Virus record (IMG/VR): IMGVR_UViG_3300046007_001369
Span: 1-24,214 of that record
Length of the DNA stretch: 24,214 bases
Origin: a virus
Reading direction: 5' to 3' (one strand)
Positions 3,084-13,901 of this stretch are shown here, in pieces. Below the pieces are notes generated by a model that saw only the letters and a list, made by a program, of their open reading frames with translations, did not search any database and was not told the origin of the DNA. The stretch's first letter is position 1, and every line of letters begins with the position of its first letter. A program made the translations under genes and the position numbers.

Positions 3084-4187
3084 TTATTTATTTACAGAAG
3101 TAAACTTTTTATATGCAATTATTGCATTGCTTATTGCTTCATCCATATTCATATACTTATAATTTGCAAGACGACCAACAAAATAGACACCTTCTTTGTC
3201 TTCAGTAGTTTCAGCTTCTTTTTGATATTGATTGTATATCGCTCTGTTTTTTTCTGTTGGAACTGGATAATACTCTTCACCTTCTGAGGTGCTATATTCT
3301 CTCGCTATTATCGTTTTATTTATGTCTATAGGATATAAATGTTTGTACTCTATTATTCTTGTGAATTTGTGCCTTTCTTCTGGATAGTTTACTTGACAAT
3401 ATGGTTGATATTGTTTCATATTCAGAAGTTCGTATTTAAAATCAAGCGAACGATATTCTAACTTACCATATTTTTCTTGGAAGTATGAATCAATTTTACC
3501 AGTAAAGAAAACAACATCAAATTCTTTCCTGAAGTCTGCAGAATATTCGGTGTTTAATAATACTTTAATATTTTCGTGATTCAACATATTGGTAACAAAT
3601 GAAGTATATCCGTTTGCTGGAAGTGCTTCATATTTGTCATTAAAATATCTATCGTTGAAATCAGTACGTACTGGTATTCTTTCAAGAACTGATGGCTCAA
3701 GTTCTCTAGGGTGCTTATCCCATTGTTTTATTGTGTAATGTAAAAAAAGCAATTCATATAATCTATCACCAACTCTTGCTTTTGCAGCATCCTCACTATT
3801 TGTAACTTTACCTTTGTATTGTAGTTTAGATAAAAAAGATTGTGCTTGTTCTTGTTTACTTAATTCAACATTAAAGACCTCATTAATAGTGTTGATGTTT
3901 ACTGGAATTGGAACATATCTGCCGTTTAAATAACTTAGAACTTTATGTTGATATGGATTCCATTCGCTGAATCTATTTACAAAGTTCCATACTTCATCAT
4001 TATTTGTGTGAAAAATATGAACGCCATACTTACTTAATCTTATCCCAGTATCTTCATCAATAAAGTCATAGACGTTTCCTCCAATGTGTTCTCGTTTGTC
4101 AATTAAACATACTTGATGATTATCTTCTGCTGCAAGTCTTGCTATTGTAGAACCAGATAAACCGCAGCCAACAATTAATATTTTCAT
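3084..4187 (-). CDS. glf: UDP-galactopyranose mutase
   Basis: This flavoenzyme interconverts UDP-galactopyranose and UDP-galactofuranose. The protein has 367 residues, the usual bacterial length. It starts with MKILIVGCGLSGSTIA, a GxGxxG dinucleotide fold, followed by the FAD-binding DKREHIGGN. Family signatures include GVHIFHTN, the substrate region IKQWDKHPRELEP, and the C-terminal FVGRLANYKYMNMDEAI. The start at 4187 is chosen because the Rossmann fold begins there and ATGA overlaps the stop of the upstream glycosyltransferase gene; the 28 in-frame residues further upstream only read across that gene. A sugar-nucleotide mutase beside a glycosyltransferase suggests the pair supplies and uses Galf, for DNA, virion or host-surface decoration. 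The enzyme call is firm; the purpose is not. Confidence 0.93.
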   Translation of the reverse strand: MKILIVGCGLSGSTIARLAAEDNHQVCLIDKREHIGGNVYDFIDEDTGIRLSKYGVHIFHTNNDEVWNFVNRFSEWNPYQHKVLSYLNGRYVPIPVNINTINEVFNVELSKQEQAQSFLSKLQYKGKVTNSEDAAKARVGDRLYELLFLHYTIKQWDKHPRELEPSVLERIPVRTDFNDRYFNDKYEALPANGYTSFVTNMLNHENIKVLLNTEYSADFRKEFDVVFFTGKIDSYFQEKYGKLEYRSLDFKYELLNMKQYQPYCQVNYPEERHKFTRIIEYKHLYPIDINKTIIAREYSTSEGEEYYPVPTEKNRAIYNQYQKEAETTEDKEGVYFVGRLANYKYMNMDEAISNAIIAYKKFTSVNK

Positions 4188-5146
4188 AAAAAGTCTGTGT
4201 AAATTAAATTTTGAACTCTTGCTATCTCCTGAAATACTTTTTCTTTTTCGTACACCATTGCCGCATCCCATTCTTTTGGCTTTCTTAAGGTGTGCTTGTG
4301 CTGAAGGAATTGCTCTTTTTGATTAGTTGAACTTTTTACATTGTAACTAACTTTCATTGTATAAATATGTGGATACTTGTTATGAGTATAAATACCACGT
4401 TTATTCTCCTTCAGTAAGTCGTTATACAATTTCCTATTTCCACCACCCTTTGACTTCTTTCCACTTTTAGAATACGAGAATAGATTTCTAATAAGAACAC
4501 TTGGTTTATTTTGATAACCGTTGTAGATGTTCATCAAGATATCTTCTTCGGTTGCATTTTCAAATTTGAAGTGCTCATCAACTTTTTGTACAAAAAACGA
4601 ATAAGCGAACCCAGATGTTAAATTGACTTCTTCATTTTTACTTGGTGCGAATGCAGCCATTTCCAATCCTACTGCTCCAAAGTTTGAGTTTTCTGCTATA
4701 AAAAACAATAGCATCATTATATGAAAAAATGCTTGTGGTTGTTTTTGACTGAAGTAAATTCTCTTACCATTTTGATTGCAGTACATTCTTTCAATATTGT
4801 CATCTAAATAAAGTACATACTCATATTTATTTTCAATAGCATATTGATTTATTATCTCTCTGGTTTCAGCACCTAAGTTTGGCTTTTCTTCTCTTTGCCT
4901 TGACATAAATTCTTGGTGCAACTCTGGAGTTAATTCAACGACTTGCATTCCATCTATTTGTCTGAATTGCCGTGCTGCTTTGTTATTGTTGGTAGCAATT
5001 ATAAAATCAACATTTGCGTCTTTAAGTTGTTTTCTAATTGAAGGAGTTAAGAACTTTCGTAACGTACTGCTATCCTTATACTCCCTTCCGCCTAATAACG
5101 CTACAAGTTTCTTATTCGAATACATATACTTTTCTTTGTGATACAA
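4184..5146 (-). CDS. Glycosyltransferase-like protein (GT-A type, possibly TAGT family)
   Basis: The 320-residue protein has an N-terminal alpha/beta region (VDFIIATNNN at ~46-55), then a hydrophobic strand ending in an acidic metal-binding-like motif, YVLYLDDNIERM (DDN at 115-117), as in GT-A glycosyltransferases. Further on are ATEEDILMNIYNGYQ (acidic ~200-202) and a Gly-rich SKGGGNRK (~232-239). This order resembles the GREB1/TET-associated glycosyltransferases described in phage DNA-modification operons, but I recognise it only loosely. It overlaps the ParB-like gene upstream (35 bases, or 14 if M8 at 5125 is the start) and the UDP-galactopyranose mutase gene downstream (4 bases), so the three are probably made together. 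Substrate could be modified DNA bases, virion protein or host glycan. Confidence 0.5.
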   Translation of the reverse strand: MYHKEKYMYSNKKLVALLGGREYKDSSTLRKFLTPSIRKQLKDANVDFIIATNNNKAARQFRQIDGMQVVELTPELHQEFMSRQREEKPNLGAETREIINQYAIENKYEYVLYLDDNIERMYCNQNGKRIYFSQKQPQAFFHIMMLLFFIAENSNFGAVGLEMAAFAPSKNEEVNLTSGFAYSFFVQKVDEHFKFENATEEDILMNIYNGYQNKPSVLIRNLFSYSKSGKKSKGGGNRKLYNDLLKENKRGIYTHNKYPHIYTMKVSYNVKSSTNQKEQFLQHKHTLRKPKEWDAAMVYEKEKVFQEIARVQNLIYTDFL

Positions 5147-5663
5147 GCTGGTCTTTCATTTCTGCAGTCAAATTGGTACTTTTTAGATTGTAGAAATCAG
5201 TAATTTTATCAATATCGTTAATGTTCTTTACACCGATAACAATAATAGTTTCAACTGAATCATCTATATGAGCATCGTCTAAAGGAAGTTCATCGTTTGC
5301 AAATACTGTATCCAATCCCCATTCAACCAACAAATCGTTATCCCATTCGTTTGCTAGTATATCCCAATCCCATTCACCAAACCCAACATTGTCTTTAATT
5401 ATAAACTCTTTCTTCTGCTCTGAAGTAAGTTCATTTGCTTTAATGATAAAAACTTCTTTTAATCCTGCTTCTTGACAAGCTTTCAATCGCATATTGCCAC
5501 CCAGCACAATCATATCTTCATCAACTACGATTGGTCTTAATTCAAGCATTTTTGGAAAGTCTTGAATTGACTTAACTAGCTTTTTAAACTTATCGTGTTT
5601 AATAATTCTTGGATTGTCAGCATTTGATTTGACAAGTTCAATCTTAACTTTTTCCGTTTTCAT
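5112..5663 (-). CDS. ParB/Srx-fold protein
   Basis: The 183-residue protein has the ParB/sulfiredoxin fold. It begins with a substrate-loop-like NADNPRI (residues 14-20), then helix LVKSIQDFPKMLELRPIVVD and the nucleotide-binding-like VLGGNMRLKACQEAG (53-67, GGNMR in place of the classical GERR). A conserved Trp-rich segment follows (FGEWDWDILANEWD, ~95-108), common in phage stand-alone ParB proteins. There is no HTH typical of segregation ParB, and no ParA nearby. Such proteins recur next to DNA-modifying enzymes in phages, as NTP-binding or DNA-clamping partners. The start overlaps the stop of the preceding gene by 4 bases, so it is co-translated with the 110-residue protein and the glycosyltransferase. 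Confidence 0.85.
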   Translation of the reverse strand: MKTEKVKIELVKSNADNPRIIKHDKFKKLVKSIQDFPKMLELRPIVVDEDMIVLGGNMRLKACQEAGLKEVFIIKANELTSEQKKEFIIKDNVGFGEWDWDILANEWDNDLLVEWGLDTVFANDELPLDDAHIDDSVETIIVIGVKNINDIDKITDFYNLKSTNLTAEMKDQLVSQRKVYVFE

Positions 5664-5992
5664 ATTGCTTTTGATTCTTTAAGTTCAACATTCAAATTAA
5701 GAATAGCAGAACCTTCTTCGTTTGTAGTAACTGTTTTGATTATTTGAAACAAGAACTTTTTTCGTGTACTGCCCATATTGCAGTAACGATAAGTAATAGT
5801 ATTATTTACTTCATTGATTTCTTTAAACAATCGTTTACGTACGAATGAAGATAACTGTGCTTCGCTTCTAAAAGTAATATCTTTTGACTTTAAGACTTTC
5901 GCTAGTGCATTCATTTCGAACTCAGCGACCTGCATAGTTATGTGAGCAGAATCTTCGAATGATAACTCTTGAAATTGTGTATTTTCTTCCAT
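5660..5992 (-). CDS. Hypothetical protein, first gene of ParB/glycosyltransferase cassette
   Basis: I do not recognise this 110-residue protein. It has an acidic N-terminus (MEENTQFQELSFED), a likely helix (EFEMNALAKVLKSK), a basic middle (FVRKRLFKEINE) and a C-terminal strand pair ending LNLNVELKESKAI. It opens the leftward cassette: a promoter-like TACATTTG lies 16 bases upstream and its stop overlaps the ParB-like start by 4 bases. By context it may be a partner or DNA-binding accessory of the cassette; nothing in the sequence proves this. Confidence 0.7.
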   Translation of the reverse strand: MEENTQFQELSFEDSAHITMQVAEFEMNALAKVLKSKDITFRSEAQLSSFVRKRLFKEINEVNNTITYRYCNMGSTRKKFLFQIIKTVTTNEEGSAILNLNVELKESKAI

Positions 5993-6015: not shown

Positions 6016-6357
6016 AGTTAATTATTCAATATTATTATTTCTAACTACTTATCTACTATTGTTTGCTTTTGGTGGATTCTGAGCTTAAAGGATAACACGA
6101 ATAACCTTACATCACTTCAAATGAAGTAAAGTTGTCGTGAACCTTTTGGCTTAACGTTTGCTTCTGGAGCCATTCGTCGCCCTTCGGATATGTTAGTGAA
6201 CTTGCACGTCCTAACACTTGGAATCTACTTAAAGACAATGTGCAATTGCCTACGGACTTACTGCTCATTCCCTAACACCGCAGCTTGGCTTTATCCGTAC
6301 CTCTTGGTAGCCGTTACAATTCATTCGCCAACGTATATACTTCCGTCCAAATGAATC
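6016..6357 (-). other. Structured non-coding stretch, function unknown
   Basis: There is no convincing gene for about 340 bases in an otherwise packed genome, and by eye this stretch is richer in G+C than its surroundings. It holds several perfect inverted repeats: 6319-6325 with 6350-6356; 6251-6256 with 6294-6299, enclosing 6261-6264 with 6280-6283; 6191-6196 with 6211-6216; 6234-6239 with 6245-6250 (one G-U); and a long imperfect hairpin over 6087-6146. The loop of the 6234-6250 hairpin (TTGCAC on the minus strand) is complementary to six loop bases of the 6191-6216 hairpin. It could be a structured RNA, a DNA site (packaging, origin, attachment) or remnant of a lost gene. The strand is not proven. 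Confidence 0.4.
6107..6268 (-). CDS. Possible small protein of 53 residues (doubtful)
   Basis: An ATG at 6268 opens 53 codons to TAA at 6107-6109 (MSSKSVGNCTLSLSRFQVLG, later TYPKGDEWLQKQTLSQ). The composition is protein-like and the frame has an in-frame stop just before the ATG. However, the start lacks the A/C-rich leader seen at other genes, and the same bases contain many inverted repeats, so this may be chance within a structured element. I recognise no family. Confidence 0.2.
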   Translation of the reverse strand: MSSKSVGNCTLSLSRFQVLGRASSLTYPKGDEWLQKQTLSQKVHDNFTSFEVM

Positions 6358-6391
6358 AAAAAAAAATCTCTAGCTGCAACCCTAGAGATTT
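6358..6391 (-). terminator. Rho-independent terminator of small RNA / leftward operon
   Basis: On the minus strand a perfect 10-bp stem (6382-6391 with 6364-6373) encloses the loop GGTTGCAG and is followed by a T run completed at 6358. It would end transcripts coming from the nuclease/sigma operon as well as the small RNA. Confidence 0.85.
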
Positions 6392-6460
6392 ATTCGAAAC
6401 ACTAGGTTTCAATTCGCGTACGCCTGATTAGGTTGCAGTCAAATAAGGAGTACGCTTAAT
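6358..6460 (-). ncRNA. Candidate small regulatory RNA with complementary (kissing) loops
   Basis: A predicted RNA of ~100 bases would start about seven bases after the -7 box TATGTTTG (6474-6467) and end at the terminator. Hairpin 1 (6416-6455) has the stem GCGTAC/GTACGC and carries CTGCAACC (6438 to 6431) in its loop. Hairpin 2 (6396-6410) has the stem GAAAC/GTTTC. Hairpin 3 is the terminator, whose loop is GGTTGCAG (6381 to 6374). The loops of hairpins 1 and 3 are perfectly complementary over 8 bases, which could form a kissing complex or, by pairing further, open the terminator. It lies in the 3' region after the Cys-rich gene, so it could also be a 3' UTR attenuator. No known RNA family is recognised. 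Confidence 0.55.
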
Positions 6461-6466
6461 ACCTGA

Positions 6467-6474
6467 CAAACATA
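6467..6474 (-). promoter_or_regulatory. -7 promoter box before the small RNA
   Basis: TATGTTTG matches TAnnTTTG exactly. The 13-base string TATGTTTGTCAGG here (6474 to 6462) recurs identically at the rightward early promoter (7827-7839). No clear TTG lies at -33, so activity may need another factor. Confidence 0.5.
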
Positions 6475-9705: not shown

Positions 9706-10365
9706 ATGGCAATTTTAGCAGAAAACAATGGCGGCGGAAATTTCGAAAGAGAATTGATACCTGCAGGACTTCAAGTGGCGCGATGCTACTCTATGTTAGA
9801 AATCGGGACGGTCGCTGAGACTTGGGAAGGACAAAGTAAAGTGAGCAAGAAAGTTCGACTAAGTTTTGAATTACCTAATGAACTCAGAACTTTTAAGCCT
9901 GAGAACGGTGAGCAGCCTATGTCTATCAGCAAGACATTCACACTTTCGATGCACGAGAAAGCAGGACTTCGCAAATTCTTGGAGAACTGGAGAGGTAAAA
10001 CATTTACAGAAGATGAAGCGAAACGCTTTGATGTGTCGAATCTTTTGGGTGCAGCAGGTATGATTACAGTCACTCACACCGAAAAGGAAGGAAAGACCTA
10101 TTCGAACATCGCGGCAATTGCGCCCGTGATGAAAGGAATGACTTGTCCAGACCAAATCAATGCAAGTAAAATATTAAGTTACGATAACTTTGATTTTGAC
10201 TTGTTCAATGAACTACCAAAATTTTTGCAAGACCAAATGGCTGCGACTCCAGAGTACGGAAAAATTCAAGCGGAGTTAGCCGCGAAGTCGAGACAATTTC
10301 AACCTATTAAACCACAAGACCCAAGACCAAATGATGTTGAAGACTACTCAGACCTACCATTCTAA
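9706..10365 (+). CDS. Phage single-stranded DNA-binding-like protein
   Basis: The 219-residue protein has a strand-rich core like an OB-fold (YSMLEIGTVAETWEGQSKVS, then KVRLSFELPNE and MITVTHTEKEGKTYSNIAAI). It ends in an acidic tail, NDVEDYSDLPF, closely matching the C-terminal D-x-L-P-F peptide through which SSB proteins bind replication partners. It would coat ssDNA during phage replication or recombination. Neighbours are the DnaA-like and other replication genes. The family is recognised by the tail and length rather than by a search. Confidence 0.75.
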   Translation: MAILAENNGGGNFERELIPAGLQVARCYSMLEIGTVAETWEGQSKVSKKVRLSFELPNELRTFKPENGEQPMSISKTFTLSMHEKAGLRKFLENWRGKTFTEDEAKRFDVSNLLGAAGMITVTHTEKEGKTYSNIAAIAPVMKGMTCPDQINASKILSYDNFDFDLFNELPKFLQDQMAATPEYGKIQAELAAKSRQFQPIKPQDPRPNDVEDYSDLPF

Positions 10366-12599: not shown

Positions 12600-13901
12600 A
12601 TGTACATACCTAACTATACTACTAGACAAGAGGAAGCATTAACACTTCTTTCACCTGCTAACTTGGTGACTGAAACCGTGCTTTATGGAGGTAGTGCTGG
12701 TGGTGGTAAAACATTTCTCGGTTGTTCTTGGCAGATTAATCGCAGATTAAAATATGCAAATACAAGAGGATTAATAGGTCGTGCAGAACTTAAGCGACTT
12801 AGACAGTCAACGATGGCAACCTTTTGGACGATTGCAAATCAGATGGGCTTAGTATCTGGTGTTCATTATACATACAACGGTCAAGACCACATTATCAAGT
12901 TCTATAATGGTTCACAGATAATGCTAATGGACCTAGCTTATACACCTTCAGATGCAGAATTTACTCGACTTGGTTCGATAGAAATCACAGACTACTTTGT
13001 AGATGAAAGCGCAGAGGTAAGTAAACGTGCGATTGACATTCTGGATAGCCGTGTCAGGTACAATCTAATAAACGGAATACCTAAAGGATTGCTATCCTGC
13101 AACCCATCAAAAGGTTGGTTGTACTCTGACTTCTTTGATGCGCATCGTAACGGTACGCTTCGTGAAGATAGAGCATTCGTCAAAGCATTGCCAACAGACA
13201 ACCCGAATTTAGAACCTGCGTACCTAGAGAAGCTTTCAAGACTTCCAGAGATAGACCGTAAACGCCTTTTAGATGGTGATTGGGACTATGATGAAAGTAA
13301 TGACCGTCTATACTACTATGATGACTTGCTGCGCTGCTTTAGGAACGAGATAAACGGTTCAACTATGTTTATAACGGCCGACATTGCAGGACTTGGTAAC
13401 GATAAAACAATCATTGGTTTATGGAGTGGATTGTCGCTTGTGGATGTGTTTGTAATGGAACAGAAATATCCTAACGAAGTAGCTGAGTTCATACGTAATT
13501 TAGCGAAGGAAAGAAGCGTGAAGCTGGGTAACATAGTTGTTGATGCTGATGGACTAGGAATTGGAGTAGTTGGTATTTTAAAGTGTCAGTCTTTCAATAA
13601 TGGTGGTCGTGCAGTTGATTCTGAAACTTATATGAATCTTAAAGCTGAGTGTTATTTTAAGTTAGGAGAATATATCAACTCAAATAAAATCATCATAATT
13701 GCTGATAAGTATAAAAGTGAAATAATAAAGCATCTTGAAGTTGTCAGAATTGCAAATATGGATAGTGAAAGAAAGAAGCAGGTGACGGGCAAAGAAGAAA
13801 TAAAAAAGAAACACGGATTTTCACCTGACTTTGCAGATATGATGATGATGCGAATGTACTTTGAACTCTATCCAAACTACGGTAAATATGCAGTCAGATA
13901 A
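12600..13901 (+). CDS. terL: Terminase large subunit
   Basis: The 433-residue packaging motor has an N-terminal ATPase with Walker A GGSAGGGKT (30-38), Walker B ITDYFVDESAEV (D135, catalytic E136) and the coupling-like LLSCNPSKGW. The C-terminal RNase-H-fold nuclease shows ITADIAGLGNDKT (D261), VVDADGLG (D315/D317) and SPDFADMMMMRMY (D410/D413), the expected acidic cluster. It docks on the portal and cuts and translocates DNA. The gene is rightward, unlike the portal and the TerS candidate, and is separated from the latter by about 9.5 kb. The length fits compact Bacteroidetes phage terminases. Confidence 0.95.
   Translation: MYIPNYTTRQEEALTLLSPANLVTETVLYGGSAGGGKTFLGCSWQINRRLKYANTRGLIGRAELKRLRQSTMATFWTIANQMGLVSGVHYTYNGQDHIIKFYNGSQIMLMDLAYTPSDAEFTRLGSIEITDYFVDESAEVSKRAIDILDSRVRYNLINGIPKGLLSCNPSKGWLYSDFFDAHRNGTLREDRAFVKALPTDNPNLEPAYLEKLSRLPEIDRKRLLDGDWDYDESNDRLYYYDDLLRCFRNEINGSTMFITADIAGLGNDKTIIGLWSGLSLVDVFVMEQKYPNEVAEFIRNLAKERSVKLGNIVVDADGLGIGVVGILKCQSFNNGGRAVDSETYMNLKAECYFKLGEYINSNKIIIIADKYKSEIIKHLEVVRIANMDSERKKQVTGKEEIKKKHGFSPDFADMMMMRMYFELYPNYGKYAVR

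Follow-up and report, generated by a model that had tools for sequence, protein, structure and literature searches.

A small RNA of uncultivated phages appears to tie its first hairpin to its own terminator hairpin through a loop-loop contact. Sequence comparison points to a genuine small phage RNA family, of which we found no description, and its loop-loop pair is strongly supported by covariation. The window analysed here is a complete IMG/VR record, 24,214 bases long. In our model the window encodes a short non-coding RNA that would be transcribed leftward from its own Bacteroidota-type promoter, be ended by its own intrinsic terminator and fold into three hairpins, with a 7-bp kissing helix between the hairpin 1 loop and the terminator loop. 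We favour, with some reserve, a stand-alone RNA with a closed fold in which the kiss is made within one molecule. The 5′ hairpin would then most likely be locked onto the 3′ terminator hairpin, which would make for a compact, closed RNA with a probably long lifetime.

Portal, terminase and sigma-factor families were matched in the window in a family search, identifying a tailed phage. The portal shares 33% identity with that of Nonlabens phage P12024S, and because of this relationship and the TAnnTTTG boxes a Bacteroidota host is suggested. The RNA unit sits on the minus strand between a cysteine-rich gene and a second gene that has its own TACATTTG box adjoining its start and therefore no need of the promoter of the RNA (Table 1). 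The sigma-like gene is located upstream of the RNA unit on the same strand, so that its control by the RNA is unlikely.

Table 1. Predicted features of the kissing-loop RNA in the window and of its immediate neighbours.
Feature	Position	Strand	Basis or remark
Cysteine-rich gene, unknown family	6913-6488	minus	gene before (upstream of) the RNA unit
Promoter -7 box TATGTTTG, TAnnTTTG, Bacteroidota sigma-A type	6466-6473	minus	sequence
Predicted RNA of ~104 nt: 5′ leader GTATTAA, three hairpins, U-tract	6358-6461	minus	promoter box and intrinsic terminator; fold shared by all nine versions
Hairpin 1, 16-layer imperfect stem, 8-nt loop ACTGCAAC (6439-6432)	6416-6455	minus	
Kissing strand 1, CTGCAAC	6432-6438	minus	covaries with 6374-6380
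Hairpin 2, TTGAAAC/GTTTCGA, 7 bp	6394-6412	minus	hairpin here in 9/9 units, sequence differs
Terminator hairpin, 10-bp stem AAATCTCTAG/CTAGAGATTT (6391-6382/6373-6364), 8-nt loop GGTTGCAG (6381-6374)	6364-6391	minus	
Kissing strand 2, GTTGCAG, in the terminator loop	6374-6380	minus	covaries with 6432-6438
U-tract of the intrinsic terminator	6358-6366	minus	sequence
Type A non-coding element, ~310-330 nt	6031-6356	minus	neighbour, not part of the kissing RNA; starts directly behind the U-tract
Gene, unknown family	5992-5660	minus	next protein gene downstream of the RNA unit

The promoter box, the GCGTAC/GTACGC stem, the middle hairpin, the terminator hairpin and the U-tract are all found on the minus strand where they had been predicted. 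The 6-bp stem pairs GCGTAC at 6455-6450 with GTACGC at 6421-6416, and CTGCAACC at 6438-6431 is complementary to the terminator loop GGTTGCAG in 8/8 positions, confirming the loop complementarity noted at the outset. A 16-layer imperfect stem closed by an 8-nt loop describes hairpin 1 better than a 6-bp stem with a large loop does. With hairpin 1 refined in this way the core kissing helix comprises 7 bp, CTGCAAC/GTTGCAG, in the register seen in all relatives. When the upstream part is dinucleotide-shuffled 20,000 times, an 8-nt match to the terminator loop arises 7 times; the 8/8 match in the window alone is thus rare, not decisive, and suggestive only. The RNA unit of the window folds better than shuffled sequences (-29.7 kcal/mol, z -2.9).

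Since the promoter box of Flavobacterium occupies positions -12 to -5 (PMC9723704), transcription is predicted to start at 6461 and to end in the U-tract at 6358. In 11/11 kissing-type loci the box precedes the RNA start by a constant distance; three of these loci have AATATTTG and the rest TAnnTTTG. From these conserved signals we infer a stand-alone transcript with its own promoter and terminator; its 5′-to-3′ fold would be closed.

Relatives were collected from IMG/VR phage contigs through the neighbouring genes. Gene 5992-5660 led to four phage contigs, the gene before the RNA unit and the sigma-like gene to a few more, the VRR-NUC gene to 80 loci, the gene at 9706-10365 to 25 loci and the VRR-NUC gene of locus L089 to a further set; in each locus the stretch behind the upstream gene was read. 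Together with the window this gave nine distinct versions of the RNA (Table 2), the other eight lying in the same genomic place behind the same upstream gene. A truncated copy in L006 has a loop 1 identical to that of L004. Folding yields the layout of hairpin 1, hairpin 2 and terminator hairpin in 9/9 units, with a larger predicted loop for hairpin 1 of L130 under the folding constraint used. Among L002, L003, L004 and L009 identity is 68-83% in the RNA as compared to 88-92% in the adjoining gene, so that the RNA changes more quickly than its neighbour. The sequences describe an RNA family of uncultivated phages whose geometry is strict and whose loop pair changes rapidly yet stays matched. 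Among isolated phages there was no DNA match to the region and no protein match to the three neighbouring genes. Judged by its portal protein, Nonlabens phage P12024S is the nearest isolate. It retains the VRR-NUC/sigma gene pair; other genes follow this pair closely there, and no such RNA was found. A scan of bacterial genomes with the VRR-NUC protein returned only two weak hits in an unrelated phylum.

Table 2. Loop pairs of the nine distinct versions of the RNA.
Unit	Loop 1	Terminator loop	Remark
Window	CTGCAAC	GTTGCAG	
L002 (= L005)	CGGAATC	GATTCCG	
L003	CAATCAC	GTGATTG	
L004	TCGAGAC	GTCTCGA	
L009	CGACAAC	GTTGTCG	
L113 (= L115)	CGACGAC	GTCGTCG	
L089	TCCCACC	GGTGGGA	
L129	GCCCACC	GGTGGGA	one terminal mismatch
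L130	AACCACC	GGTGGGT	one internal mismatch

That the two predicted loops pair, and that this pairing is conserved, is shown by covariation. MAFFT alignment of whole units put the loops of the divergent ones out of place, so the structural register with an ungapped 14-column loop alignment was used; as this alignment was assembled with the structure known, the slid-register and mismatched-pair controls matter. In one fixed register the nine units form 7, 7, 7, 7, 7, 7, 7, 6 and 6 Watson-Crick pairs out of 7, whereas mismatched loop combinations reach 3.06 on average. None of 200,000 permutations reaches the observed sum, none of 500 shuffles matches the paired fraction (96.8% of cells in the kissing helix) or the covariation score (1.024 versus 0.226 after shuffling), and every slid register falls far short of the true one. 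These controls all leave the relatedness of the units in place. For six well-separated representatives only the true assignment out of 720 gives 42 pairs, with 38 for the next best. Changes on both sides are seen in 6/7 pairs; the seventh, a C-G pair at the loop edge, is invariant and uninformative. Descent alone does not explain the match, because the loop pairs differ widely and because those of L113 and L009 are one compensating pair apart, a stepwise co-change. A change in one loop without the other, named beforehand as the outcome that would speak against pairing, was not seen except for the partial cases of L129 and L130. At least six loop pairs are hereby ready-made for tests of kissing specificity.

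The reading as an ordinary terminator whose loop matches the preceding sequence by chance is hardly credible. Matches of 6-7 nt to a terminator loop do occur in some unrelated hairpins, but the eight further versions have different letters and all match in the same register, and the covariation refutes a chance match.

Antisense RNAs usually make their first contact through kissing loops, RNAI/RNAII being an example, which raises the question of whether the loops bind other phage or host transcripts, with their mutual complementarity as a self-masking device. Outside the unit, the window has three more copies of the 7-mer or of its complement, against 1.8 expected. However, such copies number from none (L004, L009) to seven (L003) in the relatives with no obvious shared location, and the almost complete turnover of the loop letters between close relatives makes a conserved target unlikely, so that we regard an antisense function as very improbable. 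Because the loop letters change freely while still matching, the loops appear to serve for pairing with one another and to have no fixed outside target. The RNA is unlikely to read an outside target, and the role left to it would be structural, either as a stable closed RNA or as one that assembles; a role as a leader is also possible.

A counterpart of the unit is found in more distant phages (L028-L100 and others), in which the upstream gene is only ~35% identical and the same slot is mostly occupied by a unit of ~70 nt. This unit begins directly at a stem, GUCAAGC.../GCUUGAC, and forms an H-type pseudoknot in which the loop of that stem is paired to the strand immediately preceding the U-tract (ACCCCC..UUGUUU to AAACAA..GGGGGU). 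In this structure 98.9% of cells are paired and 5/13 pairs of the second, terminator-side helix have changed on both sides (0/500 shuffles), and the TAnnTTTG box is properly placed in 49/51 pseudoknot-type units. The second helix looks as if it doubles as the terminator stem and therefore should form in the nascent molecule. One genomic slot holds two solutions, kissing hairpins and an H-type pseudoknot, that tie a 5′ hairpin to the 3′ end. Common ancestry of the two RNAs is suggested by position, element order and common principle only, rather than by sequence similarity.

No unit could be recognised behind the same upstream gene in about ten distant loci. In L040, L054, L056, L095, L140 and others, some hundreds of bases of a different conserved sequence, which contains CAATGCTTGGGGCAATGC and is perhaps another RNA, take the place of the unit. 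At L071 (6394 onward, the same as L148) stem 1 of the pseudoknot is mismatched and its two halves come from different variants. This looks like a join of two parents, either a biological recombinant or a mis-assembled contig, and it was left out of the counts.

For the arrangement of the kiss the balance tips to a contact within one molecule, with a minor share for readings other than the two considered here. The within-molecule form is favoured because the loop-to-3′-end pairing of the distant pseudoknot forms the stem directly before the U-tract. The original prediction of an intramolecular kissing-loop RNA is upheld for the pairing itself, which covaries over the eight further versions; its placement within one molecule is plausible, and a contact between molecules fits the data as well. 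In the latter arrangement, which we consider possible and clearly less likely, loop 1 would pair with the terminator loop of another RNA, giving head-to-tail dimers, rings or chains similar to phi29 prohead RNA (pRNA), and the varied loop pairs would prevent coinfecting relatives from mixing their RNAs. A protomer whose two ends carry non-palindromic loops complementary to each other is the known recipe for head-to-tail assembly (PMC7357161), and self-assembling phage RNAs, GOLLD and ROOL, are known (PMC12286853). Predicted loop-loop duplexes are strong, with energies of -7.4 to -12.3 kcal/mol, and mostly weak between different phages, except for close relatives.

The geometry was considered with a rod model, a crude lower-bound calculation that fits both arrangements. 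With hairpin 2 folded, a within-molecule kiss requires bends of ~30-45 degrees per loop junction in the window clade and of 60 degrees or more in L089 with its linkers of 0 and 1 nt; with hairpin 2 opened there is ample reach. Short linkers next to a folded hairpin 2 thus disfavour closure, most clearly in L089, but hairpin 2 could open or bend and allow it. Moreover, the distant counterpart looks like an ordinary intramolecular pseudoknot with a stem that is also the terminator, and an oligomer is not suggested by any packaging protein or partner. Possible, though less likely than not, is a self-assembling RNA whose loop 1 (the lock) and terminator loop (the key) would make head-to-tail rings or chains, with a lineage-specific pair joining mainly its own kind.

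In working principle phi29 pRNA is the nearest known RNA. It is likewise a small phage-encoded RNA with two non-palindromic, mutually complementary loops (PMC7357161), its loop letters differ between phages (PMC5340915), and the complementary loop pair is kept by covariation, as found here. In contrast, phi29 pRNA has a three-way junction, paired 5′ and 3′ ends and a 4-bp kiss, whereas the RNA described here has three consecutive hairpins, an unpaired 5′ leader and a 7-bp kiss. Phi29 pRNA belongs to phi29-like phages, while here one loop sits on an intrinsic terminator and the phage has an ordinary large terminase. Membership in the pRNA family fails on fold, ends, packaging ATPase and Rfam match: no covariance model matched in Rfam, and no phi29-type packaging ATPase was found, gene 12600-13901 matching ordinary terminase large subunit families. 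In nature, functional RNA oligomers and conserved contacts between loops have seldom been observed (PMC7357161), and the present family offers a clear test of whether small phage RNAs besides pRNA assemble with their own kind.

GOLLD and ROOL, whose function is unknown, are also structured RNAs carried by phages. They often lie close to tRNA genes, and conserved kissing loops join their molecules (PMC12286853). They are several times longer (several hundred nt versus ~104 nt), adopt other folds and have Rfam models without a match here. Neither in the window nor in the relatives did the unit match an Rfam 15 family at the gathering threshold, and the relaxed threshold gave only a chance-level hit in the window region, in agreement with the original statement that no known RNA family has this layout; open-access papers yielded no report of such a three-hairpin kissing unit. 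ColE1 RNAI/RNAII also form a 7-bp loop-loop helix, between hairpins of two different RNAs in plasmid copy control, whereas here both loops lie in one RNA. Type III antitoxin RNAs (ToxI) are small H-type pseudoknotted RNAs with an adjacent intrinsic terminator and are comparable to the pseudoknot of the distant phages. A test for a type III toxin-antitoxin system revealed no tandem repeats and no match of the neighbouring genes to a toxin family. Ordinary in length and signals, the RNA is unusual in tying its first hairpin to the terminator and in the fast paired change of its loops.

Directly behind the U-tract lies an element of one of several structured-looking kinds, suggesting read-through or processing. 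The type A element of the window is 88.6% identical to that of L003 and 93.5% to that of L113. It has a consensus fold with distant relatives, with compensating changes visible in some stems, and no Rfam match. Type A, with the motifs CGGRAGTAT and TAGATTCCA, extends from the window clade to distant phages (L003 5060-5386, L113 4193-3901, L029, L052, L072 and others). It is replaced by a conserved non-coding type B element with a CAATGCTTGGAACGAGCAAC-like core in L002 (4501-4760), L034, L039, L089 and ~30 other loci, and L004 and L115 have a type C element. In L009 a 119-nt tRNA-like gene (5556-5674) obtains 37.6 bits with the Rfam tRNA model and no ARAGORN call, and is followed by another long non-coding stretch.

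The kissing RNA might therefore act as a leader whose structured terminator sets read-through into the following non-coding RNA or tRNA-like element, with loop pairing tuning termination, which is compatible with either arrangement of the kiss. In the window, L003, L113 and the distant type A loci the next element starts a few bases past the U-tract, with no room for a separate promoter, and the tRNA-like gene of L009 begins ~8 nt past it; in the distant phages the pairing helix is the terminator stem itself. However, minimum-energy folds give only the terminator form in 9/9 units, with no competing antiterminator fold visible, and the kissing-type terminator hairpin is complete without the kiss. 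The elements behind the unit differ in kind (types A, B, C and tRNA-like) and could come by read-through from upstream or be cut from a long transcript. Thus, a leader function is unlikely. The attenuator suggested originally, with hairpin 1 invading the terminator stem, is not borne out either, as the conserved complementarity is limited to the loops and leaves the terminator stem intact.

Between the RNA unit and the homologue of gene 5992-5660, L002-L005 have a variable cargo site, which in the window is without a cargo gene. By reading the sequences, the cargo was named as DNA methyltransferase-like genes in L002 and L005 and as a GIY-YIG-type protein in L003 and L004. Further along the minus strand the window encodes a ParB-like protein (5112-5663) and a protein with a weak match to the beta-glucosyl-HMC-alpha-glucosyltransferase family (4184-5146), which together may hint at DNA modification.
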